This document shows positions 8,261 to 64,000 of a DNA stretch of 64,000 bases, piece after piece. The stretch is taken from contig NZ_JACHCG010000002.1 of assembly GCF_014200595.1 (NCBI RefSeq), positions 124,001 to 188,000 on the forward strand, written 5' to 3'. Origin of the DNA: Pedobacter cryoconitis (GTDB lineage Bacteria > Bacteroidota > Bacteroidia > Sphingobacteriales > Sphingobacteriaceae). Below the pieces are notes generated by a model. It ran no database searches and was not told the origin of the DNA. It worked only from the letters and a program-made list of their open reading frames with translations. The translations under genes were made by a program, and so were the position numbers. Within the stretch, counting starts at the first letter, position 1; each line of letters opens with the position of its first letter.

Positions 8261-8285
8261 AAAAAGCCTCTCAGACCTTTTTGAA

Positions 8286-10703: not shown

Positions 10704-10707
10704 GTAA

Positions 10708-10914: not shown

Positions 10915-10915
10915 T

Positions 10916-12604: not shown

Positions 12605-12759
12605 GTTGTTTTTTTTCCGACTTCGCATGGTGGCAGGCTGTTAAATTTCATTTAAAAATAGCAAACCATTTTAAAGTTTCACGGTGGCTCTCGCTGTAGA
12701 CTTTAACAAATTGGGCACACACCAAATAATTTTGCATACTTATTGTCCTGAAATATTTG

Positions 12760-12767
12760 TAAATTTG
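12760..12767 (+). promoter_or_regulatory. Candidate -7 element of the toxin-antitoxin operon (TAAATTTG)
   Basis: TAAATTTG fits TAnnTTTG and ends only 3 nt before the antitoxin ATG at 12771, so the transcript could be leaderless or nearly so. No well-spaced -33 TTG is seen (TTG at 12743 is 14 nt away). Confidence 0.4.
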
Positions 12768-12770
12768 AAT

Positions 12771-13354: not shown

Positions 13355-13423
13355 GATATTTAGCAACTGCCTGGATTTTGTCGGGATTAATCGTATTTTT
13401 TGGATACCAAATCTCGTTAAATT

Positions 13424-14524: not shown

Positions 14525-14742
14525 TGAGAAAAACCGTAACAAATACGTAACGGAGCAAAATTTTTCGGTTTCAAAAATAGTTCTTAAATAGCTTCTGTAA
14601 TTCAGAAAAGCACATTTTGCCTAATATAAGGGCGGTTAGCTAGAAGACTCATAATCTTTTACCCTAGTGTATAGTTTAAGATACCTAAGCTTTTCCATAA
14701 TTATCTTATCACTTCCGATGTCATATTTCTACGTCATATAGT

Positions 14743-14804
14743 GGTATATGGGCGATTTTCATCAGATCTTCTATAAACTGGTTCGACCTTAGTACGTCCG
14801 GGGG
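14743..14804 (+). repeat. Imperfect 62-bp direct repeat, copy A
   Basis: This copy matches 17541-17602 in the same orientation at about 50 of 62 positions without gaps. The strongest block is GGTTCGACCTTAGTACGTCC followed by a G run. The heptamer TTCGACC, flanked by ACTGG and TTAGT that can pair with wobbles, resembles a tRNA T-arm, as in tRNA-derived attachment sites. The two copies bracket the regulator/SDR/reductase cassette. Confidence 0.7.
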
Positions 14805-14805
14805 G

Positions 14806-14837
14806 TGCATAACACCTTGATAGGAAGGTATTATGCA
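14806..14837. repeat. Hairpin next to repeat A
   Basis: A 13-bp stem with one C-A mismatch (TGCATAACACCTT with AAGGTATTATGCA) and a 6-nt loop begins 1 nt after repeat A. There is no T run, so it is not a typical terminator. It may be part of a recombination site. Confidence 0.5.
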
Positions 14838-14890
14838 ATGCAATTAATTTTGTCAGGACATTTGGCTTTATCAAATCCCATTAGCTATTA

Positions 14891-15862: not shown

Positions 15863-15901
15863 ATCTAATTCTAAATGGATTATAATTTTACAAATTGATT
15901 T

Positions 15902-16654
15902 TTACCATGGATTATTAACTACATGGTTGTCTACGTGGGTGAAAAAGCAGCCGGTAGGACCATCGTCACCCACACAGGCTAACCATACTGCTGGTCGTGC
16001 ACCTTGCTCCACGGTGTATGGTGCATTCGGTCCGCCTGCGTCTGTTTGGGTTAATCCTGGATCTGCACTGTTTACCTTTATTCCCTCCTGTCTCAATTCT
16101 TTGGCCAGTAGTACGGTGAACATATTGAATGCAGCTTTTGAAACTGCATAGGGAATGCGTGGCGGTTTAGGTCCGTTTTGATGTAAATGTTCACTAGAGA
16201 TAGTTACTGAGCCAATTGTGGACGACATATTTACAATTCTCCCGGCGGTGCTTTGCCTGATCAACGGCAGAAAAGATTGGGTTAAGTTTACCTGTGCCAG
16301 AAAGTTGGTCTCCAGAAAATCGAGTAATAATTGTTTCCCTACCTGGCTCGGCGAGCCTACATCTGTCGCTTTGGGTAAGCAGGCTGCATTGTTAACTAAA
16401 ATATCCAGGTATCCGAATTTTTCAGTAACAAGTGTTACAGCATTAGATATACCAGCGGGCTGGGTAATATCTAACAAAATGAATATAGCATCAATTCCTT
16501 CGGCAATCAGCCTATTGGTGGCGGCCTCTCCGGCGGCAGCATTCCTGGCACCTATCAAAACTTTGATTTGCCTTTTCCCTAACTGACGCGCGATCTCAAA
16601 GCCTAATCCCCTGTTAGCACCTGTAATTAGAGCTATTTTTTTCCGTGTTTCCAT
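15902..16654 (-). CDS. Short-chain dehydrogenase/reductase (SDR)
   Basis: A 250-residue classical SDR using NAD(P)H. It has the cofactor loop TGANRGLG near residue 13, NNAA near residue 87, the catalytic Ser in MSSTIG near residue 144, and YAVSK with Tyr and Lys near residues 169-173, followed by DPGLTQTDAGG. The substrate cannot be read. It lies between the Crp-like regulator and the quinone-reductase-like gene, all read leftwards, and a 16-bp perfect palindrome sits in its upstream gap. G+C is higher than in the surrounding genes. Confidence 0.88.
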   Translation of the reverse strand: METRKKIALITGANRGLGFEIARQLGKRQIKVLIGARNAAAGEAATNRLIAEGIDAIFILLDITQPAGISNAVTLVTEKFGYLDILVNNAACLPKATDVGSPSQVGKQLLLDFLETNFLAQVNLTQSFLPLIRQSTAGRIVNMSSTIGSVTISSEHLHQNGPKPPRIPYAVSKAAFNMFTVLLAKELRQEGIKVNSADPGLTQTDAGGPNAPYTVEQGARPAVWLACVGDDGPTGCFFTHVDNHVVNNPW

Positions 16655-16697
16655 CTTGTGTTTTTTTGCAAGATAGAACGCTTCGAAGAGCTTTGCG

Positions 16698-16713
16698 CTT
16701 GTCTTTAGACAAG
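16698..16713. promoter_or_regulatory. Palindromic operator candidate upstream of the SDR gene
   Basis: A perfect inverted repeat CTTGTCT-TT-AGACAAG lies in the 62-nt gap between the Crp-like gene and the SDR. It lacks a T run on the transcribed strand and resembles a dimer-binding site. The adjacent Crp-like regulator is the obvious candidate ligand. Confidence 0.45.
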
Positions 16714-16716
16714 AAA

Positions 16717-17316
16717 TCAGTCAACTAACCGTTGCAGCTTTCGTCTGATACGGCTTAGACTGGTATCGGTTACATTAAGATATGAGGCAATATATTTTAA
16801 GGGAACTCTTTGGATCAGTTCAGGCTCATGGGTAAGAAAATGAAGATAGCGTTCATGTGCGTTTAGTCTTACCCTAAAAAGATTGCGCTGTTTGTATTCA
16901 ATAAGAATCTTTTCATATAATAACCTTCCAAACCTTTCAAAATCGGGATAATTTCTAAATAACCTATCTAAGGTTGGTTTATTTACACAAAGTATATGAG
17001 AATCCTCTATTGCTATCACATTGGTCTGACTTACCGCTGCACCGGAAAAGCTTACCAATTCGCAAGTAAACGAGCCTTCTCTAAAAAAAGCATTCGTATA
17101 TTCAATATTATTAGCATCACACGAATAGGACCGTAATAAACCCTGGTAAACAAATCCCCACCAATCCCCGTATTGACCTTCTTTAAGCAGGTAACCACCC
17201 TTGGATACTGTACGAAATTTAAACAAAGAAGCAATTTGAGCGGCGTCGTTATCTTTTATTGGGATAAAAAGACGAAGTTGTTTAGTTAGCCAAATAGTAA
17301 TTTCCTTTTCAGACAT
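16717..17316 (-). CDS. Crp/Fnr-family transcriptional regulator
   Basis: A 199-residue regulator with a cyclic-nucleotide-binding-like beta barrel (GGYLLKEGQYGDWWGFVYQG) and a short C-terminal helix-turn-helix (VPLKYIASYLNVTDTSLSRIRRKL). This matches the common Bacteroidota Crp/Fnr type whose ligand is usually unknown. The start MSEKEITIW at 17316 is chosen because a promoter (-7 at 17324-17331) lies just upstream and the longer reading includes an unlikely hydrophobic leader. It heads the SDR and reductase genes on the same strand and probably controls them. Confidence 0.87.
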   Translation of the reverse strand: MSEKEITIWLTKQLRLFIPIKDNDAAQIASLFKFRTVSKGGYLLKEGQYGDWWGFVYQGLLRSYSCDANNIEYTNAFFREGSFTCELVSFSGAAVSQTNVIAIEDSHILCVNKPTLDRLFRNYPDFERFGRLLYEKILIEYKQRNLFRVRLNAHERYLHFLTHEPELIQRVPLKYIASYLNVTDTSLSRIRRKLQRLVD

Positions 17317-17323
17317 GGTGATG

Positions 17324-17351
17324 CAAAGGTAAAAAAAACATTTGAGGACAA
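17324..17351 (-). promoter_or_regulatory. Promoter of the Crp-like gene
   Basis: On the minus strand, TTG (17351-17349), a 17-nt spacer and TACCTTTG (17331-17324) fit the Bacteroidota promoter, ending 7 nt before the ATG at 17316. The short leader supports the 199-residue reading. Confidence 0.6.
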
Positions 17352-17540
17352 TTATGGGGAAGTCATAGGTGCAAATCCTTAGATATCTGTGATATGCAAC
17401 CACATTGAGTTTTATCAACAATTTGGTTGCTGGCAGTTTTTAAGTTTAAATTAATGATAGACAGTAGATTAATCGTAAGTGTCCTTTATACAACTTCAAT
17501 AAAAAAACTTGTAGCAATTCCCATTTGTACTCTTTAGATA

Positions 17541-17602
17541 GGTATTAGTGCGATTTTAAGAAGATCATCTTTAAATTGGTTCGATCTTATTACGTCCGGG
17601 GG
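17541..17602 (+). repeat. Imperfect 62-bp direct repeat, copy B
   Basis: Second copy of the repeat at 14743-14804, same orientation, about 80% identical by eye. The best block is GGTTCGATCTTATTACGTCC plus a G run. It is followed after 8 nt by a strong hairpin, as copy A is followed by one. The 17317-17647 gap otherwise holds only the Crp-like gene's promoter. Confidence 0.7.
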
Positions 17603-17610
17603 TACGACTC

Positions 17611-17642
17611 AAAAGCCTTCGATGAAAATCGGAGGCTTTTTT
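17611..17642. terminator. Bidirectional terminator
   Basis: A 13-bp stem (17611-17623 with 17628-17640, one G-T wobble) is closed by a GAAA tetraloop, with A runs on one side and T runs on the other. It serves the AraC gene on the minus strand. Its stem is almost the same as that of the terminator at 25697-25743. Confidence 0.8.
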
Positions 17643-17647
17643 GTGTC

Positions 17648-18520
17648 TTAGCATATTTTCAATAATTGTCCATTTTTCCGAAATGACGAAGGACTCATTC
17701 CTTTATATTTTTTAAATACCCTGTTCAAGTGACTCTCATCAGAAAATTTCAACTCACTAACAATTTCATTGATCCTCATATCACTGCTCAATAATCTTGT
17801 TTCAACGATTTTTATCTTAGATTTCAATATGTAATCCTGTAAAGTTTCACCAGTATGCCTTTTAAAAAACTTACCAAAATAGTTAGGGGATATATTGAAC
17901 TGAATACATATAACTGACACTTTCAGTTTATCAGGAAAATAAATATGGTCCTGTATATACTGAAACACGCTTAAAAGTTTCTGATCAGTAACCGGGGAGA
18001 TTTTTTCTGGTAAACTTTCCGCAATAGACCTCGCAACCAATAAGATCAGACTATTCATCAATTGCTGAATCAACTCTTTACTATAAAGTTGTCTATACCG
18101 CTGTTCTTCTACAATGCTTGCGGCCAACGATTTCACTAATGCCTTATCAATCTCCTCTTTTAAAATGCATCCTGGTAAATGGCTGGCATGATGAAGTATA
18201 AAATTCAGTCTTTTTACCCACTGTGCCCGCTCTTTCTCATGCACACCAACGGGGGCAGACTTGAGATAAATATCACTAAAACAAATAAACAAAATCTTCG
18301 TCGTTGTGATCACCTCAAACGAGTTATGATCCTCCGGAGTGATTAGCAACAAATGACCAGCAGCATAATTAAAGGTATTCTTATTAATATGTTGTATCCC
18401 GGTACCCTCCACTATATAAACCAGTTCGAAGAAATTCTGGCTATAACCAGATTTCAAACATTCATTAATCTCCTTATAGAGGATTTCAAATGGGTAATAA
18501 AGATTTTGTTTCACGTCCAA
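17648..18520 (-). CDS. AraC-family transcriptional regulator
   Basis: A 290-residue regulator with an N-terminal cupin-like sensing region (YIVEGTGIQHIN, LLLITPEDHNSFEV) and two C-terminal helix-turn-helix motifs (CIQFNISPNYFGKFFKRHTGE, then IVSELKFSDESHLNRVFKKY). It is divergent from the amidase gene, with about 80 nt between, and so a likely regulator of it. No ATG is near; the TTG at 18520 or a GTG at 18514 could start it, and a -7-like CAAATTTA (18518-18525, minus strand TAAATTTG) overlaps the TTG, so the exact start is unsure. Confidence 0.86.
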   Translation of the reverse strand: MDVKQNLYYPFEILYKEINECLKSGYSQNFFELVYIVEGTGIQHINKNTFNYAAGHLLLITPEDHNSFEVITTTKILFICFSDIYLKSAPVGVHEKERAQWVKRLNFILHHASHLPGCILKEEIDKALVKSLAASIVEEQRYRQLYSKELIQQLMNSLILLVARSIAESLPEKISPVTDQKLLSVFQYIQDHIYFPDKLKVSVICIQFNISPNYFGKFFKRHTGETLQDYILKSKIKIVETRLLSSDMRINEIVSELKFSDESHLNRVFKKYKGMSPSSFRKNGQLLKIC

Positions 18521-47100: not shown

Positions 47101-48183
47101 TTATTCCAACCTGACCTCAGTTCCATCAGCCAGCTCTTCTGTTCCCTTTACTAAAATCTGATCGTCTTCCCTGACCGGGCCAAAAATCTCCTGAAGCTCT
47201 CCTTTACGGGTGCCAGCCGTTACGCTGACCCTTTTACTCTTACCCTGCACTATCTTCACAATAAATATACCCGATTGCGCAACGACAATGCTGCTTACAG
47301 GCACCCATAAAGTAGCATGGGGTCTTTGCAGTGTTAACTTTACCTGGGCATACTCACCACCATTCAAAACATGCTGCGTATTGGATATATCAAATTCTGC
47401 GGTGACAGCGCGGGATTCCTGTTGTAATAAATCACTTTTCCGGGAGAGGACAGAAAAAAAGAGCTGCCCCGGATGATCACTAACCGTAAAAGATACTTTC
47501 GTGTCTTTACCCACAGCTTGTACATGCTTTTCTGGTATAGCTACAGTTAGTCTCAGGCGGCTCGTCTGTGCAATTGAAAACAAAGGGACCTGATCACCAA
47601 CCAAAGCTCCCGCAGATATATTTTTATGGATGACCGTTCCATCAAAAGGTGCTATAATCCGTAAATACTGCTGTAATTGTGCAGAAGCACCTGTGGTTGC
47701 TTTTACAGCTGCATAGGCAGCGCTATCGCTTCTGAACTTGCTTCTTGCCTTATCCAGCTCTATTGCAGCAACAGCTCCGGCTCTGGTTGCCGCTTTCATT
47801 AAGCGCTCATAAGCCTGGAGACTATAAAGATAATCTTCATGAAATTTATTCTCATCAGCCCGGGCTGACAGATAATGCTGGCTGATCTCGGGTGCTTCCA
47901 AAATGGCCAGCAGCTGTCCCTTTTTCACTTTGCTGCCTCTGTCAACAAATATCTTTTTGACAAACCCTTTCACTTTTGGATAAATGATAACTTCCTCATA
48001 AGGTTTAAGCTCTCCGGGCAGAGAAAGAGCATAAGAAGGCTGATCAGAAACTGGATGAATAAACTGAACCACTCCGGTCTTTTGATTTTGTGGTTGTTTC
48101 TTCCTGACCTGATCAGCAGAACAACCGGCAAAAATTAAAGTAGATAGGATAGAAATTTTTAAGATATAACTGTTAAGTTTCAT
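47101..48183 (-). CDS. Efflux RND periplasmic adaptor (membrane fusion protein)
   Basis: A 360-residue lipoprotein adaptor (signal ending IFAGC) that joins the RND pump to TolC. It has the lipoyl half-motifs (VDRGSKVKKGQLLAILEAPE and RIIAPFDGTVIHKNISAGALV), an alpha-hairpin between, and the beta-barrel region after residue about 200. It is the last gene of the minus-strand order TolC, RND, adaptor. Confidence 0.9.
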   Translation of the reverse strand: MKLNSYILKISILSTLIFAGCSADQVRKKQPQNQKTGVVQFIHPVSDQPSYALSLPGELKPYEEVIIYPKVKGFVKKIFVDRGSKVKKGQLLAILEAPEISQHYLSARADENKFHEDYLYSLQAYERLMKAATRAGAVAAIELDKARSKFRSDSAAYAAVKATTGASAQLQQYLRIIAPFDGTVIHKNISAGALVGDQVPLFSIAQTSRLRLTVAIPEKHVQAVGKDTKVSFTVSDHPGQLFFSVLSRKSDLLQQESRAVTAEFDISNTQHVLNGGEYAQVKLTLQRPHATLWVPVSSIVVAQSGIFIVKIVQGKSKRVSVTAGTRKGELQEIFGPVREDDQILVKGTEELADGTEVRLE

Positions 48184-48196
48184 ATATAATAGCTGT

Positions 48197-51100
48197 TTAT
48201 GCCTGGGTAGGAGCAGGGTGAATCAATAAGTTTTTATTTGCCGGATCATCAGGATCCAATGTCAGGCTCTCTCTGGTTTTATTTTTCATGATCAGGGTAT
48301 ATACCTGTGGTAAAATCAACAAGGCAGTCAAAGTTGACAAGATCAGACCGCCAATAACTGCCTGACCCAGCGGAGCAACCTGTTCAGAACCTTCCCCCAT
48401 ACCAATAGCCATCGGAATCATTCCCGCAATCATGGCCATGGTGGTCATTGTAATTGGTCGTAACCGGGAAGAAGCAGCAAGAAAAATAGCCTGCTTAGCC
48501 TGCATACTACGTTTTAACCGGTTAATTTCTGCCTGATTGATCATTAAAACCGCATTTGAAACGGAAACCCCAACAGACATAATAATCCCCATATAAGACT
48601 GAAGGTTTAAGGTGCTCCCTGATAAAAGTAAGAGCATCAAACTACCGCCAATAACTGCCGGCACAACAGATAATATTAATCCTGAAACTGCAAATGACTG
48701 ATAATAAGCAGTGAGCATTAAAAAGATAACCACGATTGCTACCAACAAACCAGTTTGTAAACCAGCAAGCGTTTCTTCCAGCAGTTCGACCTGCCCTTCA
48801 GTAGAAACAAGCGTACCTCTGGGTGGGGGACCTGCCTCTTTAATCACCTGATGTGCTGCTTTTGAAGCTGCTCCCATATCTTTCTGGTGAATATTTGCCA
48901 GTACAGTCACATACCTGTTTGGCCCCTGACGATTCACCTGACCGGGAAGTTTAACCAGGCTGATTTCGGCTACATCTTCTAATACAGGTCTTGGCTGACC
49001 TGATTTTAAAGGTAAGGAGCGAAGTTTATCCAGTGAATGCATATCCGCCTCCGGAATCTGTACCTGTACCTGGAAAACCAATCCTGATTTGGGGTCTGCC
49101 CAGAGATTCTTGTTGGTAAACCGTGAGGAAGAAGTTGCGATTGTCAAAGTCCGGGTGACGTCATCCATAGTTAAACCAAACTGAGCGGCCATTGCCCGGT
49201 TTACATTGATTTCAACACCAGGGTAGTTAACCGGTTCTGCTATCCGTACATCCCTGAAAAAAGGGACTTTCAGTAAACCCTGTTCCAGTTTTTTTGCAAA
49301 TTTCTCTGCGCCCTTTATTTGTCCTGCGGCCACTTTAATCTGTACCTGGTTCATGGCTCCCTGGCTCATTATTTTCTCCACAAGTTCCATCGGTTCAAAA
49401 CCAATCTTCAGCACAGGGATTTCCTGCTGAATAACCTTTCTTATTTTTTCCTTTAATTCAGCAATTGAACCTTTGAATAACTGCTGATCAACTGACAATT
49501 GCAGTACAGCCTCATGAGAGCCACTGGTGAACAGAAAAATGGGATTAATGGCGGTTGCAGAAGGTTGCAAACCCACAAAAGCAGAACTTATTTTAATGGC
49601 TTCAGGAGGCAGTTGTTCATGGATCAGCTGTGTCACTTTTTTCAGGTACCCTTCTGTGACTTCAAGCCTGCTGCCTTCAGGAGCCAGGATACGCAATTGC
49701 AGATCACCACTGTTGCTCACAGGCAGAATATCAGTCCCGATGTAAAACCCGCCTGCGCCAATCATCAGTAATACAATCAGTGTATAACCACCAATCACTA
49801 GTCCAATCTTGCTTTGACCATACCTGATCAATAACAAGTACCTGCGTTTAAATTTCTCAAACCTCGTTAACTTCTTTTGATGCAGGCTGATTTTATGGTG
49901 CTGGAATTGTTCAGGTTTCATCAGCCAGTTGGCTAAGATGGGAACGAATGTTTGCGAGGCAATAAAAGAAGCAATCATCGCAAAAGCAACCGCCAATGAA
50001 AGCGGCATAAACATATCCTTTGGGATCCCTGTCATTAAAAAAGAGGGGATAAGTACCGCCAGGATACAAAATAAGATCAGTATTTTCGGAACAGAAATTT
50101 CCAGCAAAGCATCCAGTACAGCCCTTTGTTTTGGCTTCTCCATTTCAAAATGCTGATGTATATTCTCAATGGTTACCGTCGCTTCATCAACCAGTATTCC
50201 TATCGCTAAAGCCAGGCCACTTAAAGTCATCACATTAATAGTCTGTCCGAACAAATAGAGCATAATTACCGCAGAAAGGATGGCGATCGGAATGGTAAGT
50301 ACCACAATTAATGCACCTCTGGAATCCCCTAAAAACAAGAAGACCATCAATCCGGTCAGCAGTGCGCCAAGCACCCCCTCATGCACAAGATTTTCTAAGG
50401 ACTTCTCTATATAACCAGACTGATCGAACACATACTTAATATCCACATCTTCTGGTAAAGCAGCCTTTAACATTGGAATAGATGCTTTTAAGTTTTCTAC
50501 CACTTTAAGAGTAGAAGCATCTGCTTTTTTGATCACCGGCAAGTACACCGACCGCTTTCCGTTAATCAGCCCATAACCGGTAGTTATATCAGCGGCATCC
50601 TCTACAACGGCAATATCTTTCACATAAATATTTGTTCCGGAACCAACTCTGACCGGGATGTTCAGGAATTCCTCCGGCCCTTTTGCAATGGAATTTACCG
50701 GGCTCATCAGGTTCTGATCCCCAATTCTGATATTTCCTGCCGGTGAAGGAAAGTTATTTTTAGCAATTGCCGTAGTCACCTCCTCAGCAGACAATCCGTA
50801 AGATTGCATCAGCTCAGGATTGACTTTAACAACCATAGTTCTTACATTTCCCCCAAAAGGAGCAGGGGCAGTTACCCCGGGAATAGTGACAAACATGGGT
50901 CTTATTTTTGTCAGTGCCAGCGTCTGAAGCTCAGTAATAGACTTTTCAGTACTTTCAAAAACTAACTGACCAATAGGGAGCGAGCTGCCATCAAACCTCA
51001 CCACCTGTGGAGGGACAGCGCCCGGTGGCAGAAAGCCCATTGCCCTGGAAACCTGGGCGGAGACTTCCCCCGACGCCTGTGCCATATCAGTTCCCGGATA

Positions 51101-51385
51101 AAAAGTGATCTTCATCAAGGTAAACCCTTGTATACTTTTAAAATCTATACCCTTCACACCACTCACAAAAATCAATACTTTCTGAAATTCATTGGCCATA
51201 AAACCATCCATATAAGCCGGACTAAGACCACCATAAGGCATAGCAATATAAATGACCGGTAATTCGACCCTGGGAAAGATGTCTACATTGATGTTTTTGA
51301 TTGCGGTGAAAGAGAAATAAGCGATGGCCAATACAGCGACCATAACAGTTAATGGCTTTTTTAATGCAAAACGGATCATATTCAT
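48197..51385 (-). CDS. Efflux RND transporter permease
   Basis: A 1,062-residue inner-membrane proton-driven exporter. It has twelve predicted membrane segments with two large periplasmic loops, the opening MIRFALKKPLTVMVAVLAI, and the ALAIGILVDEATVTIENI segment in TM4, where AcrB has two adjacent Asp residues and this protein has Asp-Glu. The TM10 segment SVGVSVSNAVLMINQAE lacks the Lys of AcrB. So it is not a typical HAE1 pump, and the export substrate is unclear. It lies 8 nt after the TolC gene and 13 nt before the adaptor. Confidence 0.9.
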   Translation of the reverse strand: MNMIRFALKKPLTVMVAVLAIAYFSFTAIKNINVDIFPRVELPVIYIAMPYGGLSPAYMDGFMANEFQKVLIFVSGVKGIDFKSIQGFTLMKITFYPGTDMAQASGEVSAQVSRAMGFLPPGAVPPQVVRFDGSSLPIGQLVFESTEKSITELQTLALTKIRPMFVTIPGVTAPAPFGGNVRTMVVKVNPELMQSYGLSAEEVTTAIAKNNFPSPAGNIRIGDQNLMSPVNSIAKGPEEFLNIPVRVGSGTNIYVKDIAVVEDAADITTGYGLINGKRSVYLPVIKKADASTLKVVENLKASIPMLKAALPEDVDIKYVFDQSGYIEKSLENLVHEGVLGALLTGLMVFLFLGDSRGALIVVLTIPIAILSAVIMLYLFGQTINVMTLSGLALAIGILVDEATVTIENIHQHFEMEKPKQRAVLDALLEISVPKILILFCILAVLIPSFLMTGIPKDMFMPLSLAVAFAMIASFIASQTFVPILANWLMKPEQFQHHKISLHQKKLTRFEKFKRRYLLLIRYGQSKIGLVIGGYTLIVLLMIGAGGFYIGTDILPVSNSGDLQLRILAPEGSRLEVTEGYLKKVTQLIHEQLPPEAIKISSAFVGLQPSATAINPIFLFTSGSHEAVLQLSVDQQLFKGSIAELKEKIRKVIQQEIPVLKIGFEPMELVEKIMSQGAMNQVQIKVAAGQIKGAEKFAKKLEQGLLKVPFFRDVRIAEPVNYPGVEINVNRAMAAQFGLTMDDVTRTLTIATSSSRFTNKNLWADPKSGLVFQVQVQIPEADMHSLDKLRSLPLKSGQPRPVLEDVAEISLVKLPGQVNRQGPNRYVTVLANIHQKDMGAASKAAHQVIKEAGPPPRGTLVSTEGQVELLEETLAGLQTGLLVAIVVIFLMLTAYYQSFAVSGLILSVVPAVIGGSLMLLLLSGSTLNLQSYMGIIMSVGVSVSNAVLMINQAEINRLKRSMQAKQAIFLAASSRLRPITMTTMAMIAGMIPMAIGMGEGSEQVAPLGQAVIGGLILSTLTALLILPQVYTLIMKNKTRESLTLDPDDPANKNLLIHPAPTQA

Positions 51386-51393
51386 TTGTATAA

Positions 51394-52764
51394 TTAAAAT
51401 TGACTGGACAGCTCACTAAAATCACCCGAGAGTTCGGCTCTTTTAATCAGCAGGTTCCAAAACTCCTGCTGAACTTCAATGGCATTTTTTTCCACCTGTT
51501 GTAATAAAGATTGAATTTGCAGCAGCTCTGTTAAATTAATCAGGCCACTTTCATACCTGGACAGGTATAAATTATAGGCCTGCTGTGCCTTTGCTAAAGC
51601 AAGCCGTGTATTGGCTACCTGTTTCAACTGCTGATTAACTCTGCTGCCAACCGCTTGTAAAGCAGTATTCATCTGCAATTTTTGCAAGTCATAACTGAAC
51701 TTTGAAGCCTGAACTGCCTGAGCTGTTCTTTTCTTTGCAAATGAACCAGTATAGATATCACTGAGGTTCCAGGTCAACCCTATACCCACCAGGTAATTAC
51801 GTGCGGTATTAGTATAGCCTGCTGATAAATCCCGGTTAACAGCTCCATTTGCCGATATGCCACTTCCACGAGCTGATAAACCACCTGAAAGAGAGAAAGA
51901 AGGCAGCATTTTTCTGGAAGAAAGCTCATTCTGGATTTCATTATACCTCACCTGTTTATCCAGTATTTGTAAATACGGATGGTCTGGTGAAATTGAATCT
52001 GAAGAAACCTGTAACGTTTGGTAACGCATAAAAGATTGCTGCGGCAATTGAATTTCTGCCAGCGGTACCACCTCTGAAAAGTTGATTTTTCCTGCATTGT
52101 ATTTACCAGTCCATTCATCCTTTGTGGCTTTTGCCAGTAAATACGAGGATGCAGCCAGTGCAGTATCTGCACCAGGCTTTAAACCGGCATCGGCAAGGCT
52201 TACCGACAGGTCAAGAATTTCTTTTACTCTTTTTACCTGCTGATCTGCCCATTCAAGATTTGAATTTGCATAAAGTATTCCTACATAAAGGGAGGTTACT
52301 TTTGCTTGTAAGGCCAGCTTTGCTGCATCATAACCACTTTTAGCCTCCTGAACTTTATAACCAGCGGCCTTTATTGTTTTGCGTTGTTTCCCGAATTCGA
52401 AAAACTTCCAGTCTGCTAAAACTGATCCGAATGTATTTGCTGCGGCTGTATTTTCCTGACCAGACTTTGTCCCGTTTACATTAAATACACCAGGAACGGG
52501 GAAAAAGGCACCATTACTACCTGCAAATGTCCCGTAAGAGTTTTGCAGCTGTAATTGCATTTGTGGTAAAGACCGGCTTTGAATCTCCTTTTGGGCATAT
52601 TGAGATTCTTCCAGCAGTGCATTTTTTGCGAGAAGGCCGGAATAGTTTTGATACGCTATTTCCCACGCATAGGTTAAAGAAAGCCCTGCTGGTTGTTGTG
52701 CGTAGGTGCTTACACTAATCAGCATAGAAAACATGCCAATCAGATAAAGATTGTACTTCATCAT
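51394..52764 (-). CDS. TolC-family outer-membrane efflux protein
   Basis: A 456-residue protein with a signal peptide (MMKYNLYLIGMFSMLISVSTYA) and long coiled-coil helices. Features include LALAKAQQAYNLYLSRYESGLINLTELLQIQ near the end, typical of TolC repeats. It is the first gene of the TolC-RND-adaptor operon. Confidence 0.88.
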   Translation of the reverse strand: MMKYNLYLIGMFSMLISVSTYAQQPAGLSLTYAWEIAYQNYSGLLAKNALLEESQYAQKEIQSRSLPQMQLQLQNSYGTFAGSNGAFFPVPGVFNVNGTKSGQENTAAANTFGSVLADWKFFEFGKQRKTIKAAGYKVQEAKSGYDAAKLALQAKVTSLYVGILYANSNLEWADQQVKRVKEILDLSVSLADAGLKPGADTALAASSYLLAKATKDEWTGKYNAGKINFSEVVPLAEIQLPQQSFMRYQTLQVSSDSISPDHPYLQILDKQVRYNEIQNELSSRKMLPSFSLSGGLSARGSGISANGAVNRDLSAGYTNTARNYLVGIGLTWNLSDIYTGSFAKKRTAQAVQASKFSYDLQKLQMNTALQAVGSRVNQQLKQVANTRLALAKAQQAYNLYLSRYESGLINLTELLQIQSLLQQVEKNAIEVQQEFWNLLIKRAELSGDFSELSSQF

Positions 52765-53564: not shown

Positions 53565-53726
53565 ATGACCAATTACTTACTATACATTGATCCAGGGACA
53601 GGCAGCCTGTTCTTTCAAGCTATTTTATCAGCTATCCTTACACTATCTGTTTTTGGAAGCAAATTGAAAATATTCGTTATGCACTTTATCAGAAGCATCA
53701 GATCAAGGAAAGGAAGTGAAGAATAA
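53565..53726 (+). CDS. 53-residue DPGTGS membrane protein
   Basis: A short gene translated as MTNYLLYIDPGTGSLFFQ followed by a hydrophobic segment (AILSAILTLSVF) and a basic tail with SRKGSEE. The motif YIDPGTGS next to a membrane segment is typical of small proteins found in surface-polysaccharide clusters. The stop TAA overlaps the next ATG (TAATG), showing translational coupling to the methyltransferase gene. The function is unknown. Confidence 0.75.
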   Translation: MTNYLLYIDPGTGSLFFQAILSAILTLSVFGSKLKIFVMHFIRSIRSRKGSEE

Positions 53727-55096
53727 TGAGTTTATTACAAGCGATTTCTTACAAAGACCCTGCTGGTTTTGTCGTTAAACTAGAAGATGGATATTATAGA
53801 TATATTGCTCCTGATTATGCATTGGAATTTGATCACCTGAGTGAATCGGGACTTTATCAGAATCTGGTAGATCAGGAGCTGATGATACCACATGCCGAGG
53901 TCTTATTAGATGATAAATTTCCAGGTTATTATAAGAAAATATTTCCACAGCAGTTAGCTTTTATATCCTATCCATTTGAGTGGTCTTATGCACAATGGCA
54001 GCAAATGTTATTAGCTTATACCAGGATTAATCAGCTTTCGTTAGCACATGGGATGATTTTAAAAGATGCTTCTCCCTATAACTTCACCTTTCACAATGAT
54101 AAATGTGTATTAATTGATACACTATCTTTCAGTTTCTATAAAGATGGAGATCCATGGATAGCCTACCGGCAATTTTGCGAAGAATCTCTTTCTCCATTTT
54201 TATTGATGCACTATAAAGATCCCTTGTGGTCAAAGTTATATAGAGGAAGTATTACCGGGTTGCCTCTTCCTTTTGTCAGCAGCCATTTGCCTTTCAGGAC
54301 TCGTTTTGATCCCTTCTGTTTGATACATATTCATTTGCACTCCCGATTTAGTAATGATAAAAAAGGTAAAAGCGAAGCTGCACGGCAGGGATTGAATAAG
54401 GAGAAACTGAAAGTTCTTTTTAGCAACATTGCCAAAAACGTTTTGACCAAAAAACAACCCTTGCTTAAAAATAGTATATGGGATCATTATTATGAGAATG
54501 ATATTGAAAGTGAAAGATATATTACAGCTAAAACAGAGGTGATTACCAAATGGCTGTCGGAAATAAGGCCTGATGTGACTATTGATTTGGGCGCGAATAC
54601 AGGCAAGTTCTCCCGCTTAGCTTCGCAGTTTTCGAAATCTGTTTATGCAGTAGAAAGTGATGCTTACTGTGTAGATGAGATTTATAAAAGTAATACACAG
54701 ATAAAAGATAATAATATCACTTCAATTTTGGCTGATCTTGCTGATCCATCCCCAGGATTAGGCTGGCATAACGAGGAGAAATCACCTCTTTTAAAACGTT
54801 TAAAAGGAGAAATGGTGATGGCTCTTGCTTTAATTCATCATTTATGTCTGAGCAGAAACTTGCCGATTCCTTTTGTTGCCCGGCTTTTCTCTGAAATGAC
54901 AACACGGTATGCAATTGTTGAATTCGTTCCAAAAGAAGATCCTAAATCCAGGTTGTTATTGCAGCATAAAGGAGATATTTTCGAATATTATACGGAAGAA
55001 GATTTTATCAATTCATTTGAACATCATTTTAGATTAGTTGCCTGTCATCCATTTGAAAAATCGTTAAGAAAATTGTTTTTATGGGAAAAACGATAA
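53726..55096 (+). CDS. NoeA-like SAM-dependent methyltransferase
   Basis: A 456-residue protein in two parts. The N-terminal half (about 1-235) has LIDTLSFSFYKDGDPWIAYRQF and other signs of the NoeA-like family. The C-terminal half has a class I methyltransferase fold with TIDLGANTGKFSRLASQFSK as the SAM loop and VYAVESD as the acidic motif. It may methylate an exported glycan or lipid. It is coupled to the DPGTGS gene before it and overlaps the phosphotransferase gene after it by 16 nt. Confidence 0.8.
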   Translation: MSLLQAISYKDPAGFVVKLEDGYYRYIAPDYALEFDHLSESGLYQNLVDQELMIPHAEVLLDDKFPGYYKKIFPQQLAFISYPFEWSYAQWQQMLLAYTRINQLSLAHGMILKDASPYNFTFHNDKCVLIDTLSFSFYKDGDPWIAYRQFCEESLSPFLLMHYKDPLWSKLYRGSITGLPLPFVSSHLPFRTRFDPFCLIHIHLHSRFSNDKKGKSEAARQGLNKEKLKVLFSNIAKNVLTKKQPLLKNSIWDHYYENDIESERYITAKTEVITKWLSEIRPDVTIDLGANTGKFSRLASQFSKSVYAVESDAYCVDEIYKSNTQIKDNNITSILADLADPSPGLGWHNEEKSPLLKRLKGEMVMALALIHHLCLSRNLPIPFVARLFSEMTTRYAIVEFVPKEDPKSRLLLQHKGDIFEYYTEEDFINSFEHHFRLVACHPFEKSLRKLFLWEKR

Positions 55097-56439
55097 ACGA
55101 CTGGCTGAGCAGGCCATTATACATTTATAGTTTCGGTCTTTTTTTTCTTATTTATAAGAGTTCTCAATATTTTCCATCATTTGATCTGTTACTCTTTATT
55201 TGCTTTTTTGTGGGTTATTGCCTAATTAACTGTGGTATAATACTTATTCAGAAAAAAGCAGGATTTTATAAATTTGGTTCGTGCTGGCTAATATTCACCT
55301 GGATATTATTTCTGTTTTCAGAACAGATTATTAATTATTTAAACGAATATATAGATCCGGCATTTGTTCGTTTCAGATATTTATTCCTGGTCATTATAAG
55401 TATATGTCTGGTTATATATTTAATATGTAGGAAAGTGGATAGGCAAAAGATTCTGATATTGAACTCTATAATTAATGTATTTGTTTTTATACTTACCGTA
55501 TTAACTATTACATCTGGAGTCAAACTTGTTTACTGGGAAAGAAATCATAATATTGCTTTAAATAATAGAAGGCTTCCTTCTTTAGATATCAAAAATAACA
55601 ATGATGTAATATGGATATTGCTTGATGAATATACTGATCCGGCTAGCTTAAAAAGTCAATTTAAATATCATGATTTTCTTGTTGATTCATTAGAAATGAA
55701 AGGGTTTTTTGTTTTTGATAAACTAAAATCTCAAAGTAGCACAACTGTTTATTCAATTAGTTCTTTGTTCAATCTTAATGATACTATTCCAATTGCAAAT
55801 TATAGTTACGCTACTCATTATTTAGATGAAAATATTTGGATAAATCATTTACATAGAATTGGTTATGATTTTGTTAATCTTGATTTTTTAAACATTGGAG
55901 GATACCCTAAATTTTCTTATCTGAGAATTTTTTCAGATAATTACTTTGATCAAATTATATCTGGATCTGTTTTTGCTTCATTGTTGGATAATTTAACTGA
56001 AGAAAAAAATGTTATTGATATTTATAATCAAAAAGTTATCAGAGTTTTTAAACAGAAAGTTAATGAAAAACGAAATAAACCAGTTTTTATCTGGACACAT
56101 TTAATGATACCTCATGAACCATTTTATAGAGATGCTAATGGGAATATGAACAAATTCCCTGTTCTTAATGTTAGTACATCTCCAGCTTCACTAATAATCA
56201 AGCAATACACGGAGTACCTTTCTTATGGAAATAATGTATTGCTGAAAATGTTAAATGAGATCCCAAACTGGAAAAATAAGACTATTATTATTTCCGGAGA
56301 CCATGGAGCGAGGATGCTTATACCTGATAACGACCCTAGAAGAAAGCAAACATTTGGTGCAATCTATTATCCCGGTATGGACAAAAAAGAACTGGGTAAA
56401 ATTGAGTATATGCAGCAGATTCCATTTCATCTTCATTAA
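55081..56439 (+). CDS. Membrane phosphotransferase/sulfatase-fold protein, possibly truncated
   Basis: A 452-residue protein with about four N-terminal membrane segments (residues 12-150) and a periplasmic alkaline-phosphatase-superfamily domain: VIWILLDEYTDP (metal site and nucleophile region), THLMIPHEPF and ISGDHGAR (metal ligands). This resembles LPS or teichoic-acid phosphoethanolamine/glycerol transferases. The DNA is clearly AT-richer than the neighbours, suggesting transfer. The C-terminus ends abruptly after QQIPFHLH, so the last helix may be missing. Confidence 0.78.
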   Translation: MGKTINDWLSRPLYIYSFGLFFLIYKSSQYFPSFDLLLFICFFVGYCLINCGIILIQKKAGFYKFGSCWLIFTWILFLFSEQIINYLNEYIDPAFVRFRYLFLVIISICLVIYLICRKVDRQKILILNSIINVFVFILTVLTITSGVKLVYWERNHNIALNNRRLPSLDIKNNNDVIWILLDEYTDPASLKSQFKYHDFLVDSLEMKGFFVFDKLKSQSSTTVYSISSLFNLNDTIPIANYSYATHYLDENIWINHLHRIGYDFVNLDFLNIGGYPKFSYLRIFSDNYFDQIISGSVFASLLDNLTEEKNVIDIYNQKVIRVFKQKVNEKRNKPVFIWTHLMIPHEPFYRDANGNMNKFPVLNVSTSPASLIIKQYTEYLSYGNNVLLKMLNEIPNWKNKTIIISGDHGARMLIPDNDPRRKQTFGAIYYPGMDKKELGKIEYMQQIPFHLH

Positions 56440-59078: not shown

Positions 59079-62000
59079 ATGATGGAAAATCTTAAGATAA
59101 TCGGAATAACCCCATTTGAGAAGCCAGATACCGAACTTGCAATCGCTTTAAATCAATCAGGAATATTTCCTGTATTAAATCTTGGTTATCAATTACCTGA
59201 AGCAATTCAGGCATTGAATAAATTAGTGCAAAATGGTGTGACAGATTTTGGAGTATGTATTCCGTCTTCTGATTTGACAACTATCGAACTCCCTGTACAG
59301 GTAAGCCTGATTATTATTCCTGATGGCGTAGAATTTCAGCGTAAAGCAGGAGTGAAGCTTATTCGCCAGGTTTATGACCTCAGCTCGGCAAGACAAGCTA
59401 AAGCTGCGGCTGCCGATGGGATTATTGTGAAAGGAAATGAAGGAGCAGGAAGAGTTGGACATGAATCGTCCTTTGTCCTGTTTCAACGCATAATACAAGA
59501 AATTAAAGACATTCCTGTTTGGGTACAGGGCGGCGTTGGTATACATACCGCTGCTGCTTTAATTGCCCAGGGAGCTGCCGGGATTATACTGGACAGTCAA
59601 CTGGTTTTATTTCCAGAATGCAGTGCACCTAAAGCCATCAAAGATATCTGTGCTAAATTAAGCGGTACAGAAACCAGGCTATTTGGTGATTACCGGGTAT
59701 TATCCCGTCCAAACTCACCTGTTATCCAGCAGGATATCAGTCCAAAAGAATTGACTACCTATTTTACTGACTTCAATCTGGAGAAAAGCTACCTTCCCTT
59801 AGGACAGGATATTGCGCTTTCTCCAGATCTTTTTAGCAGGTATAAAAAATTAAGCAAACTCGTATTTGGTATCAGAGAAGCTATTTACGGCCATTTAAAC
59901 CAGGCGAAATCACTGAATGTAATTAGCCCGGAGAATCCGTTGGCCAAAGAACTGAACCTGACTTACCCGATCGCACAAGGCCCGATGACCAGGGTAAGCG
60001 ACGTTGCACAATTTGCAGATGCCGTATCTGGTGCCGGTGCTTTATCATTTATAGCTTTATCCTTACTCAAAGGAGAAACCGCAAAGAACCTCATCAAAGA
60101 AACCAAAAGGCTTGCAGGTAAAAAGACCTGGGGAGTAGGTATTCTTGGTTTTGCCCCGCAAGAACTGCGTGATGAGCAAATGCAATATATTCTGGAAGAA
60201 AAGCCACCAGTAGTGCTGATTGCCGGAGGGCGCCCATCACAAGCCAAACCACTGGAAAAAGCAGGAATCAAAACATTTCTTCACGTGCCGTCAGCATCAC
60301 TGTTAGAGATGTTCCTGAAAGAAGGCGCCCGGAGATTTGTTTTTGAAGGCCGCGAATGCGGAGGCCACGTTGGCCCGCTATCCAGTATGGTACTTTGGGA
60401 AAAACAAATTGAACGTTTACTGAAAGAAGATAATCCGGAACAAATCAGCGTATTTTTTGCCGGAGGTATTCACGATGCCTTCTCCACCGCATTCATCTCT
60501 ATTATGGCAGCCCCGCTTGCTGCAAGAGGTGTAAAAGTCGGTGTATTGATGGGAACAGCTTATTTGTATACCAAAGAAGCCGTAAGTACCGGAGCCATTC
60601 AGGAGAAATTTCAGCAGCAGGCTGTACAAGCCAGTGATACCATATTACTGGAAACCGCTCCTGGACATGAAACAAGATGTCTTAAATCTCCATTTTCTGA
60701 TTTCTTTAGTGAAGAGAAGATCAAACTTCAGCAATCAGGGATTGATAAAAAAGAAATATGGGCAAAACTGGAAACGCTGAATGTAGGGCGTTTAAGAATT
60801 GCAGCCAAAGGAATAGAACGCAGAGGAGACGAGCTGGTTACGATCAATGAAGCCGAGCAGCTTACCCTGGGTATGTATATGATCGGCCAGATTGCCGCGT
60901 TGCAAAATAAAGTAGTTTCCTTACTGGAACTGCATCAGGATGTAGCAGAAGGTAACTATCAGCATGTGCTGAATGCAGTACTTGCTGCTGCTCCGGAAAA
61001 AACAGGTAAATCTCTGGATGTTGCGATCGTAGGGATGGCATGTATCTTCCCTGGAGCAAAAGATCTGGAAGAGTACTGGAGCAATATTATTTTAGGGAAA
61101 GACAGTGTAACTGAAGTTCCGGACGAACGCTGGAACAAAGAATTATATTATGATCCGGAATCTACAGCAGGTGATATGTCACACTCTAAATGGGGTGGCT
61201 TTATCCCTAAAATAGATTTCGATCCGGTTGAATTTGGTATTCCGCCACAATCACTCGCAGCAATAGAGCCTACCCAGTTGTTAACCCTGATGGTTGCTAA
61301 ACAAGCCATGGAAAACGCAGGTTATCTGGATGGCGGGTATGACCAGGAAAATGTATCTGTAATTATTGGTGCCGAAGGTGGTAATGATCTGGCAAACAGC
61401 TACGGATTCAGATGTTTCTATAAACAGGTATTCGGAGATATGCCGGCCGAGATTGATCAGGCTTTGCCTAAAATGACAGAAGATTCCTTTCCCGGTATCC
61501 TGGCTAACGTAATTTCAGGAAGAGTAGCCAACAGGCTAAACTTAGGCGGACGTAACTTTACCGTAGACGCAGCCTGCGCATCCTCTCTGGCAGCAGTTGA
61601 CCTGGCTTGTCAGGAATTATTTTTAGGCAAATCTGATATGGTACTGGCAGGCGGAGCCGATTTACACAATGGGATCAATGATTACCTGATGTTTTCAAGC
61701 ACGCACGCATTATCCCGTAAAGGCAGGTGCGCTACTTTTGATGCAGAAGCAGATGGAATTGCATTGGGTGAAGGGATAGCCATGGTGGTTTTAAAAAGAC
61801 ACGAAGATGCGCTGAGAGACGGAGACCGGATTTATTCAGTCATCAAAGGTGTTGGCGGTTCAAGTGACGGTAAAAGTTTAGGCCTGACTGCACCGCGTAA
61901 AAACGGGCAGGTACAAGCGCTGGAACGTGCTTACGATCAGGCAGGAATTACCCCTTCGGTAGTTGGGCTGGTAGAAGCTCATGGAACAGGAACTGTAGTG

Positions 62001-64000
62001 GGTGACCGCACAGAATTAAGTGCATTGACAGATAAATTTATTCAATCTGGTGCAATAGCCGGACAAGCGCACCTTGGTTCTGTGAAAACTCAGATCGGAC
62101 ACACTAAATGTGCCGCTGGTCTTGCAGGTTTGATTAAAGCATCCCTGTCCGTTTATCATGGAATCAAACCGCCAACCATCAATCTGAAAAACCCGAATAG
62201 CTATTACAATGCAAAAACCAGTCCTTTTGCTTTTCATACCGAAGCAGGATTGTGGACGGAAGAAAAACGTTATGCAGGTGTGAGTGCATTTGGCTTTGGA
62301 GGAACTAATTTTCATGCCGTAATTGAGAATAAAAATCCCGTAAATACTTCGGTACCGACCTTGAAAACATGGCCATCAGAGCTTTTTGTTTTCAGAGGTG
62401 ACACTTATGAAGAAGCAAAAATTAAATTAACAGCAGTCAAAACATTGTTAGACAGCAACGCACAGGTTGATTTAAAAGATATTGCCTACAGTCTGGCTAT
62501 GGCCGATAGTAAACCCATCCAGCTGTGTATTGTTGCAGACCGTCAGGAAGACCTGAATATGAAGGTCGAACTTACCCTTTCCGGTATTGAAAGTAAAGAC
62601 ACTTATGCCACTAAAAAAAGAGACGGTAAAGTGGCCTTTATGTTCCCCGGACAAGGTAGTCAGCGTATTAATATGGCAAGAGATCTTTTTGTCATCTTCC
62701 CGGCAATGCGCGGTTTATTAAAAGACTTACCAGAATACGAAAAAGTACTGTTTCCAAATGCAGTATTTGATACAGCCTTGCTCAAAGGACAAAAAGAAGC
62801 CATCAAAGATACCCGTATGGCCCAGCCTGTATTGGGAATTGTCAACCTGGCTATCGCCAGCTTCCTGAGAGAATTGGGGATTGTACCCGATATGGTTGCC
62901 GGACATAGTTACGGAGAATTGCCAGCATTATGTTTTGCTGGTGCATTTGCTGAAGATCAATTGGTACAATTAAGTTCGGCAAGAGCAAAATCTATTCTGG
63001 ATGCCGTGGAAGGTGAAGATACAGGGGCAATGATTGCGGTCAACGCCAAACAGGAAGAGCTGCAAAAAATCATTTCAGGCTTAACTGATATCTATGCAGT
63101 GAATTATAACTCACCGCTGCAATGTGTGCTGGCAGGAACCACACCTGCAATTCAGCAGCTGATGGAAACCCTTAAAGCAGCTAAAATATCTTTCAGAGCA
63201 TTAGAAGTTGCCTGTGCATTCCATAGCCCGCTGGTTGCCAAATCAAAAGAGCTTTATCAGCAGGTATTAGCAGGCGTTCAGTTCAATGATCTGAATTTAC
63301 CAGTATGGTCTAATACTACGGCCAGAGAATATCCTGAGCAAGCCGCACAGATTAAAGAAAGATTGACAGATCATCTGATCAAACCCGTAAAATTTGTAGA
63401 TCAGGTACAGGAAATGTATGCTGCCGGAGCAAGGATCTTCATCGAAGTGGGCCCGGGTAAAGTATTGTCAGGACTGACCAGGGCTTGTTTAGGTAAAGAC
63501 GAAATGCTGCTGCATGCAGAAGATAAAGGTTTGAACAAGCTGACCCATCTTTTAGGTATGCTGGCCAGTTACCTCTCTACCGGACGTACCATCCACATCG
63601 AAAAATTATTTGAAGGCCGCGGCGCGAGATTATTAAATCTCAATGAACCGGCATTGTATAAAAAAAGCCCTACAGTCTGGTTCGTTAACGGCCAGCACGC
63701 AATTCCGTCAAACGGGAAATTACCAGCTAACGGGGCGTTACCTATCATACAACCTATCCAAATGAAAAACAGAGAATTAAGATCAGAATCCTCACAAAAC
63801 GCTCACTCTGCCAGTGATTTGATGATGCAGGAATATCTGAACAGTATGAAATTATTAATTCAGGCACAGCGGGATGTGATGCTTACCTTTTTAGGGCAGA
63901 ATGTTTCTTTTAACCAGGGATTATCTAATCCTGTAGCTTTACCGCAGCCTGTTTTCGCACAACCAGTACCGCAGGCAGCCGCTTACGAAGCAGCGCCGCA
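59079..64000 (+). CDS. Polyketide synthase with N-terminal reductase domain, 5' part
   Basis: One frame is open from ATG 59079 (a second ATG follows at 59082) through the right edge, 1,640 codons without a stop. Residues 1-215 and about 290-640 form nitronate-monooxygenase/PfaD-like FMN domains (AGRVGHESSF, VWVQGGVGIHTAAALI; then YPIAQGPMTRVSD and GRECGGHVGP). A ketosynthase follows (about 646-1075) with Cys833 in VDAACASSL, His968 in HGTGT and His1008 in GHTKCAAG. An acyltransferase follows (about 1185-1500) with Ser1277 in GHSYGE and His1382 in CAFHSP, the latter fitting malonyl-CoA. A docking-like helix (YLNSMKLLIQAQRDVML) then leads to what should be carrier domains. It is cytosolic and modular, probably making a polyunsaturated or reduced chain. 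Confidence 0.93.
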   Translation, partial: MMENLKIIGITPFEKPDTELAIALNQSGIFPVLNLGYQLPEAIQALNKLVQNGVTDFGVCIPSSDLTTIELPVQVSLIIIPDGVEFQRKAGVKLIRQVYDLSSARQAKAAAADGIIVKGNEGAGRVGHESSFVLFQRIIQEIKDIPVWVQGGVGIHTAAALIAQGAAGIILDSQLVLFPECSAPKAIKDICAKLSGTETRLFGDYRVLSRPNSPVIQQDISPKELTTYFTDFNLEKSYLPLGQDIALSPDLFSRYKKLSKLVFGIREAIYGHLNQAKSLNVISPENPLAKELNLTYPIAQGPMTRVSDVAQFADAVSGAGALSFIALSLLKGETAKNLIKETKRLAGKKTWGVGILGFAPQELRDEQMQYILEEKPPVVLIAGGRPSQAKPLEKAGIKTFLHVPSASLLEMFLKEGARRFVFEGRECGGHVGPLSSMVLWEKQIERLLKEDNPEQISVFFAGGIHDAFSTAFISIMAAPLAARGVKVGVLMGTAYLYTKEAVSTGAIQEKFQQQAVQASDTILLETAPGHETRCLKSPFSDFFSEEKIKLQQSGIDKKEIWAKLETLNVGRLRIAAKGIERRGDELVTINEAEQLTLGMYMIGQIAALQNKVVSLLELHQDVAEGNYQHVLNAVLAAAPEKTGKSLDVAIVGMACIFPGAKDLEEYWSNIILGKDSVTEVPDERWNKELYYDPESTAGDMSHSKWGGFIPKIDFDPVEFGIPPQSLAAIEPTQLLTLMVAKQAMENAGYLDGGYDQENVSVIIGAEGGNDLANSYGFRCFYKQVFGDMPAEIDQALPKMTEDSFPGILANVISGRVANRLNLGGRNFTVDAACASSLAAVDLACQELFLGKSDMVLAGGADLHNGINDYLMFSSTHALSRKGRCATFDAEADGIALGEGIAMVVLKRHEDALRDGDRIYSVIKGVGGSSDGKSLGLTAPRKNGQVQALERAYDQAGITPSVVGLVEAHGTGTVVGDRTELSALTDKFIQSGAIAGQAHLGSVKTQIGHTKCAAGLAGLIKASLSVYHGIKPPTINLKNPNSYYNAKTSPFAFHTEAGLWTEEKRYAGVSAFGFGGTNFHAVIENKNPVNTSVPTLKTWPSELFVFRGDTYEEAKIKLTAVKTLLDSNAQVDLKDIAYSLAMADSKPIQLCIVADRQEDLNMKVELTLSGIESKDTYATKKRDGKVAFMFPGQGSQRINMARDLFVIFPAMRGLLKDLPEYEKVLFPNAVFDTALLKGQKEAIKDTRMAQPVLGIVNLAIASFLRELGIVPDMVAGHSYGELPALCFAGAFAEDQLVQLSSARAKSILDAVEGEDTGAMIAVNAKQEELQKIISGLTDIYAVNYNSPLQCVLAGTTPAIQQLMETLKAAKISFRALEVACAFHSPLVAKSKELYQQVLAGVQFNDLNLPVWSNTTAREYPEQAAQIKERLTDHLIKPVKFVDQVQEMYAAGARIFIEVGPGKVLSGLTRACLGKDEMLLHAEDKGLNKLTHLLGMLASYLSTGRTIHIEKLFEGRGARLLNLNEPALYKKSPTVWFVNGQHAIPSNGKLPANGALPIIQPIQMKNRELRSESSQNAHSASDLMMQEYLNSMKLLIQAQRDVMLTFLGQNVSFNQGLSNPVALPQPVFAQPVPQAAAYEAAP

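Follow-up and report, generated by a model that had tools for sequence, protein, structure and literature searches.

Pfa-like synthases were divided into Types A–T by Shulse and Allen in 2011. In their account, Types M–T are marked by the PPTase motif P1b' hShxH, Type N comprises Chitinophaga pinensis and Chryseobacterium gleum and is without a known product, and some Bacteroidota make PUFA via Pfa synthases (PMC3098273). Few secondary lipids, a handful, are described as known chemically (PMC13291983). In the ars-type (Type P) of Azotobacter, ArsA is reported to make C23–C25 fatty acids, with ArsD as the PPTase (PMC4824345). Fusions of a reductase with a synthase have also been published. A fused pfaDA accompanied by a PPTase-bearing pfaBC was described in Aquimarina sp. 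TRL1 and Flavobacterium sp. N502540, where it is likened to Renibacterium salmoninarum and termed unusual, and a pfaD–pfaA fusion was described in Ottowia (PMC13291983, JACS Au 2026).

The window analyzed here, i.e., the whole stretch of 64,000 nucleotides, comes from Pedobacter cryoconitis (G000:C2:124001-188000; source genome of 6.35 Mb in 17 contigs). At its right edge begins FAS1, the first gene of a nine-gene operon with intergenic gaps of −19 to 103 bp. Together with the second large subunit, FAS2, it belongs to the published kind of Pfa-like secondary lipid synthases: KS, ACP, and KR are each present at least once, tandem ACPs (typical of the kind, not required) occur as a pair in FAS1, and the PPTase motif of FAS2, identified by eye as VSLAH, fits the hShxH pattern of Types M–T. 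Tandem ACPs, KS, KR, and PPTase agree with the definition given in PMC3098273. Species of Chitinophaga and Chryseobacterium other than the Type N pair C. pinensis and C. gleum carry the same fused protein as FAS1, and on the basis of genus the operon may therefore represent Type N. Unlike the Type N text of that paper, which mentions no such neighbors, the FAS1 operon is accompanied by glycosyl- and acyltransferase genes.

By description, the locus shares with Aquimarina, Flavobacterium, and Renibacterium a reductase placed ahead of a PfaA-like synthase and a PPTase at the end of the second protein. However, the Aquimarina and Flavobacterium genes are reported from hybrid PKS–NRPS clusters (PMC13291983), whereas FAS1 and FAS2 are followed by glycosyl- and acyltransferases. 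The likeness to the ars-type concerns Azotobacter ArsA by description only (PMC4824345) and the plasmid pBIND02 of Beijerinckia indica by sequence. The Beijerinckia synthase aligns with 40.9% identity over query residues 7–1842 (70% coverage), both barrels included, and its locus contains the synthase, two genes annotated as 3-oxoacyl-ACP synthase III C-terminal, which we read as type III PKS genes, and a PPTase protein that aligns to the DH–PPTase part of FAS2. Barrels ahead of KS–AT–ACP–KR and a DH–PPTase partner are therefore common to both. In contrast, no 3-oxoacyl-ACP synthase III genes lie between the Pedobacter subunits, none of the nine genes is a type III PKS, and FAS2 has an extra KS–AT part.

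FAS1 and its tandem barrels

The FAS1 frame is located on the forward strand; its first ATG is at 59004, and no stop interrupts it up to the window end. The start at 59079 is favored over this first ATG because the resulting protein of 2344 aa, with 1,640 codons inside the window, fits the lengths of the homologues, which among the matches listed are about 2310–2380 aa for most and 2346–2347 for the closest two. Past the window the frame proceeds in the host genome without a stop and ends at G000:C2:190113. Positions 59079..64000 (+) thus hold the first 1,640 of 2,344 codons, and matches at E<1e-200 occur in 15 other genomes. The two-barrel region finds its closest named matches, at 82–95% identity, in strains of Pedobacter cryoconitis and in Pedobacter sp. 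PAMC26386. We rejected a frameshift or an artefact of assembly, as the frame is open both in the host genome and in the homologues; in particular, the N-terminal domains are not split off by a frameshift, a point the earlier note had raised.

The full-length domain order is barrel1–barrel2–KS–AT–ACP–ACP–KR. For the part inside the window, Pfam returns two NMO stretches, ketoacyl-synt N and C, and Acyl_transf_1 (E 5.5e-71 to 6.1e-23), in agreement with the single frame of two NMO-type barrels followed by KS and AT that the earlier note had described. The five catalytic residues proposed there also lie exactly at their positions (numbered from 59079). The ketosynthase (61020..62321, +; Pfam ketoacyl-synt N E 5.5e-71, C E 4.2e-34) carries Cys833 in DAACASS, His968 in EAHGTG, and His1008 in IGHTK, and the acyltransferase (62637..63467, +; Pfam Acyl_transf_1 E 7.1e-31) carries Ser1277 in GHSYG and His1382 in CAFHSP. 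We take the CAFHSP and GHSYG motifs of the AT to predict a preference for malonyl. According to frame, Pfam, and alignment, the last segment (63468..64000, +) is the start of the linker toward two ACPs and a KR, both past the window. Extension to the right, as proposed earlier, indeed revealed two PP-binding domains with LSIDSI twice and then the KR, all in the same frame. A script pattern for LSIDSI-type ACP sites, applied to the 120 listed homologues, found two sites in 116, one in 3, and none in 1.

Full-length FAS1 reaches 1047.5 bits against the PfaA model TIGR02813 and passes its cut-off of 1010.1; the window part alone gives 704.2 bits. FAS1 is therefore a PfaA-type synthase in the broad sense, consistent with the initial assignment to type I synthases related to PUFA synthases.

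The barrels themselves tell a different story from that assignment, in which they were called PfaD-like. Barrel 1 (D1; 59082..59903, +) is NMO/FabK-like by Pfam NMO (33.3 bits, cut-off 28) and the FabK model, and has Arg125 (codon at 59451) where the motif-III His would stand. Barrel 2 (D2; 59937..60956, +) is a FabK-like enoyl reductase by the FabK model and a PDB match, and bears ECGGHVG with His430 (codon at 60366). The FabK model TIGR03151 is the sole NCBIfam model matched by each barrel alone (E<=0.01), at E 4.4e-10 and 39.3 bits for barrel 1 and E 8.6e-35 and 120.5 bits for barrel 2, both far below the equivalog cut-off of 453.1. PDB sequence matches at E<=0.001 comprise FabK and NMO types and no PfaD. 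The best relatives are the FabK enzymes of C. difficile and Fusobacterium, with barrel 2 matching C. difficile FabK 7l00 at E 4e-24. A structure model built from 22 sequences shows two successive alpha/beta barrels with moderate confidence (pLDDT 72.7, pTM 0.58), which drops to low values at the loop bearing the barrel-2 His and beyond residue 566. In a Foldseek search with this model, FabK ranks first (1.5e-13) and PfaD first appears at rank 44 (6e-7). Since NCBIfam, PDB sequence, and fold search all point to FabK, a PfaD identity was rejected, and the barrels do not resemble the PfaD-type enoyl reductase of pfaABCD PUFA synthases.

The two barrels are homologous to each other (hhalign probability 96.5, E 9.3e-10). 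They differ in their active sites, as judged from 184 aligned FAS1-type proteins (the best-scoring relatives and four plasmid proteins, close kin weighing heavily). The histidine at the proposed catalytic position is found in 184/184 for barrel 2 and in 2/184 for barrel 1, where GGH is retained in P0112 and P0168 only. The former picture of two working reductases is therefore not upheld: in 182 of the 184 proteins the proposed catalytic His is missing from barrel 1, and in FAS1 itself only barrel 2 has this motif-III His. At the lost-His site, barrel 1 shows K, Q, L, R, N, S, I, M, W, A, T, or P. The four plasmid proteins likewise have ECGGH in barrel 2, and their barrel-1 His is replaced by Q, R, R, or W. 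The domains, the motifs, and this loss, along with gene order and conservation, can be read directly from the sequence.

The His in question has been proposed as catalytic in FabK and PfaD, and a dimeric state has been reported for such enoyl reductases (PMC13311796). Given these reported dimers, barrels 1 and 2 may pair within one chain, and barrel 1 would most likely be a conserved non-reducing barrel that serves as a built-in partner of barrel 2. A parallel described in the same source is the thraustochytrid PUFA synthase with ERb and ERc, which also has two FMN barrels per synthase and a motif III His. There, however, the barrels are PfaD-type, belong to two proteins, and both keep their His, whereas those of FAS1 are FabK-like and in tandem, one without His. 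No account of a His-less first barrel was met in the open-licence papers searched, which is not a claim of absence.

FAS2 and the conserved operon

Operon coordinates are given below in L011 numbering, in which base 1 equals window position 59004. FAS2 (7137-11441; 1434 aa) contains KS, AT-like, DH, and PPTase domains, assigned by Pfam and, for the DH, by a structure model. Pfam barely detects the DH (PS-DH, E 0.034). When modeled in the homologue from P. cryoconitis DSM 14825 (pLDDT 79.3, pTM 0.81), it resembles solved PKS dehydratases, with the MlnB DH first (E 1.6e-10), and its His and Asp motifs, YLxDH and LLDNxGQ, do not vary among 25 sequences. The Pfam result for FAS2 contains no FabA-type dehydratase. 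The second KS, in FAS2, retains its Cys and thus does not look like a CLF. Accordingly, the PfaC-type KS–CLF with FabA-like DH/isomerase of PUFA synthases was not found in FAS2 and its own operon. It is in the ER, the DH, and the second KS that FAS1 and FAS2 depart from a PUFA synthase.

FAS2 is followed by a free-standing ACP (11429-11737), an alpha/beta hydrolase (11719-12480), two UDPGT/EryCIII-type glycosyltransferases (12501-13703 and 13714-14919), and two condensation/PapA-type acyltransferases (15023-16300 and 16304-17578), all assigned by Pfam. Against the model MGT for macrolide glycosyltransferases, the two glycosyltransferases score 199.5 and 171.2 bits (E 8.4e-59 and 3.4e-50), below its cut-off of 260. 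The acyltransferases carry HHCLIDG and PHCICDG. The ninth gene (17571-18128; 185 aa) has no Pfam match and is called a membrane protein by sequence reading alone. An AsnC-type regulator lies downstream of the operon on the opposite strand.

This arrangement is conserved. All eight genes from FAS1 to the second acyltransferase are present in 15/15 other loci with a full-length match, several of these loci coming from genomes also matched in the two-barrel search; the ninth gene is found in 13/15. Within this set, one acyltransferase is cut by a contig end, the alignment of acyltransferase 1 stops at residue 331 in one relative, and that of glycosyltransferase 2 begins at residue 74 in another. 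One locus (L094, G408) has three acyltransferase-like matches, not two, after the glycosyltransferases, and its ninth gene is unmatched. Separately, Pedobacter panaciterrae O48 has two copies of the synthase region (L043, L044) on a single contig, separated by about 110 kb. Their FAS2 proteins show the same identity to the query, as would arise from duplication or from an assembly repeat.

Proposed function and alternatives

FAS1 and FAS2 probably form an iterative, fully reducing Pfa-like 'secondary lipid' synthase whose operon leads to an acylated glycolipid. The AT would load malonyl onto the tandem ACPs, activated by the PPTase at the end of FAS2, and the KS domains would perform the condensations. 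Each cycle would be finished by the KR of FAS1, the DH of FAS2, and the FabK-like barrel 2 of FAS1, with the His-less barrel 1 as built-in non-reducing partner of the latter. Release or transfer of the long acyl chain could then fall to the free-standing ACP and the alpha/beta hydrolase, with sugar added by the two glycosyltransferases and esterification carried out by the two condensation/PapA-type acyltransferases. We infer that the synthase works iteratively, and likewise how long the chain is, what barrel 1 does, in which order the steps occur, and to which class the product belongs. An acylated glycolipid is our best guess for the product. No product was met in the open-licence papers searched for the glycosyl-/acyltransferase-linked form, without any claim of absence.

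The same genes might instead produce a glycosylated, antibiotic-like polyketide, with selective use of the reductive domains and a hydroxylated polyketide as the substrate of the glycosyltransferases. The sub-threshold MGT matches of both glycosyltransferases, a DH of the PKS double-hotdog kind, and the two condensation-superfamily acyltransferases are consistent with such a product. We nevertheless regard it as unlikely, as FAS1 passes the PfaA model, the ACPs are of the tandem LSIDSI form, and the operon spreads a full reductive set over two chains while lacking a modular series of KS domains.

A different alternative concerns barrel 1, which could be a second flavin enzyme, e.g., a FabX-like dehydrogenase/isomerase placing double bonds. 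Near the lost His, barrel 1 has Glu in 184/184 proteins (4 residues before the position) and Lys in 182/184 (7 residues before). Since both are kept and 2/184 proteins retain GGH, barrel 1 might still do some chemistry, and FabX is indeed among the fold neighbors of the two-barrel model. On the other hand, the lost-His position varies freely, unlike a new catalytic residue, and many FabK and NMO chains come ahead of FabX in a fold search that pooled both barrels. A FabX-like role thus appears improbable compared with that of a non-reducing partner.

A true PUFA synthase for polyunsaturated membrane fatty acids, suggested by the PfaA score of full-length FAS1 and by the Pfa-derived PUFA of some Bacteroidota (PMC3098273), is very improbable and was set aside as first choice on the FAS2 domains, the Cys-bearing second KS (unlike a CLF), and the PKS-type DH, which is not of the FabA type by Pfam, together with a FabK-like rather than PfaD-like ER and the linked glycosyl- and acyltransferases in 15/15 relatives.

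In a wider and more tentative reading, a widespread class of bacterial type I lipid synthases would carry a fused pair of FabK-type barrels, the first of them a conserved pseudo-enzyme that does not reduce but gates the second or pairs with it. In Pedobacter, Chryseobacterium-like, and related Bacteroidota, this synthase would make the core of an undescribed acylated glycolipid. If true, the tandem barrel with its His-less site would represent a pseudo-enzyme occurring naturally within a megasynthase. With the operon in 12/24 other same-genus genomes sampled and the transferases in 15/15 loci, the preferred acylated-glycolipid reading can be tested in easily grown soil bacteria.

Occurrence, homologues and neighboring genes

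The FAS1 gene is patchy and accessory, yet widespread. The two-barrel region matches 5,011 of 7,986 scored proteins at E<=0.001, in a search that took candidates of 0.55–1.75 times the query length and therefore covered long proteins only, to the exclusion of stand-alone reductases. All 120 listed of these 5,011 matches have NMO, KS, and AT domains, with KS/AT motifs in 120/120. The same search from a Chitinophaga homologue gave 5,246 of 7,993 and added Filimonas, Dyadobacter, and Puia. Among the matches listed, named hosts of the fused protein are Pedobacter, Mucilaginibacter, Chryseobacterium, Chitinophaga, Dyadobacter, and Filimonas. Chryseobacterium sp. ERMR1:04 has two different proteins of the family (P0118, P0119), perhaps paralogues in one genome. 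In Chryseobacterium herbae, an antiSMASH region of the hglE-KS/T1PKS/terpene kind with no known match has been reported (PMC10459008); it is not equated here with the FAS1 locus.

At E<=1e-200, full FAS1 was found in 13/41 relatives' genomes, own included, namely in 12/24 other genomes of the same genus and 0/16 of other genera. Across the phylum, the two-barrel region reaches E<=1e-200 in 4/392 genomes, own included. A further 113 phylum genomes have some two-barrel match, with a best E of 2e-17 or weaker, and among the matches listed these are mostly open frames of about 310–380 aa.

Outside Bacteroidota, 1,369 plasmid records have a match, of which 4 cover >=80% of FAS1: two Streptomyces plasmids (about 40% identity over 98%), Methylosinus C49, and one Rhodobacteraceae strain. 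The locus of Streptomyces NBC_00984 retains FAS1, FAS2, ACP, hydrolase, and one glycosyltransferase. A KS tree of 29 rows, hand-picked from tblastn matches over 380 columns and with no gammaproteobacterial PfaA, groups the FAS1 KS with the Streptomyces KS (support 99/99). The join of this group to Beijerinckia/Methylosinus is weak (81/20), and two long rows, the C-1027 enediyne KS and one Persicobacter KS, are unplaced.

The domain order was originally regarded as uncommon. This is not supported, given the fused order in all 120 listed of the 5,011 proteins, its presence in Streptomyces and on alphaproteobacterial plasmids, and the published fusions. In favor of the earlier view, PMC13291983 terms fused pfaDA unusual; by protein count, the order is common. 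The refuting observation named in the earlier note, the same order in many CHARACTERISED synthases, is borne out in part, as the order is common but no characterised example was directly met; the Beijerinckia homologue lies in a locus of the ars type, which has been characterised in Azotobacter. Being published and common by count, the order is not new as an oddity. Considered in that way the locus is ordinary, and its modest interest lies in two points, a first barrel that is conserved in its degenerate state and an acylated glycolipid as the predicted product.

Operon membership was considered for the genes that lie upstream of 59079 and rejected: only 4/39 related loci (L015-L018) keep any of the eight, several of the 39 holding little upstream DNA. 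By sequence reading, an efflux set at window 47101-52764 (−), about 6 kb upstream of the synthase, encodes a membrane-fusion protein, an RND pump, and a TolC-like outer membrane protein; pump and TolC parts stand beside the synthase in 2/39 loci. At window 53726-56439 (+), a methyltransferase-like protein overlaps a sulfatase-like membrane protein, again by sequence reading, and this pair lies upstream of the synthase in four close relatives. Elsewhere in the same genome, further PKS-type loci are located at G000:C1:2759815-2811258, G000:C3:492075-536080, and G000:C2:248058-250493, and include frames of about 6,900 and 4,750 aa.
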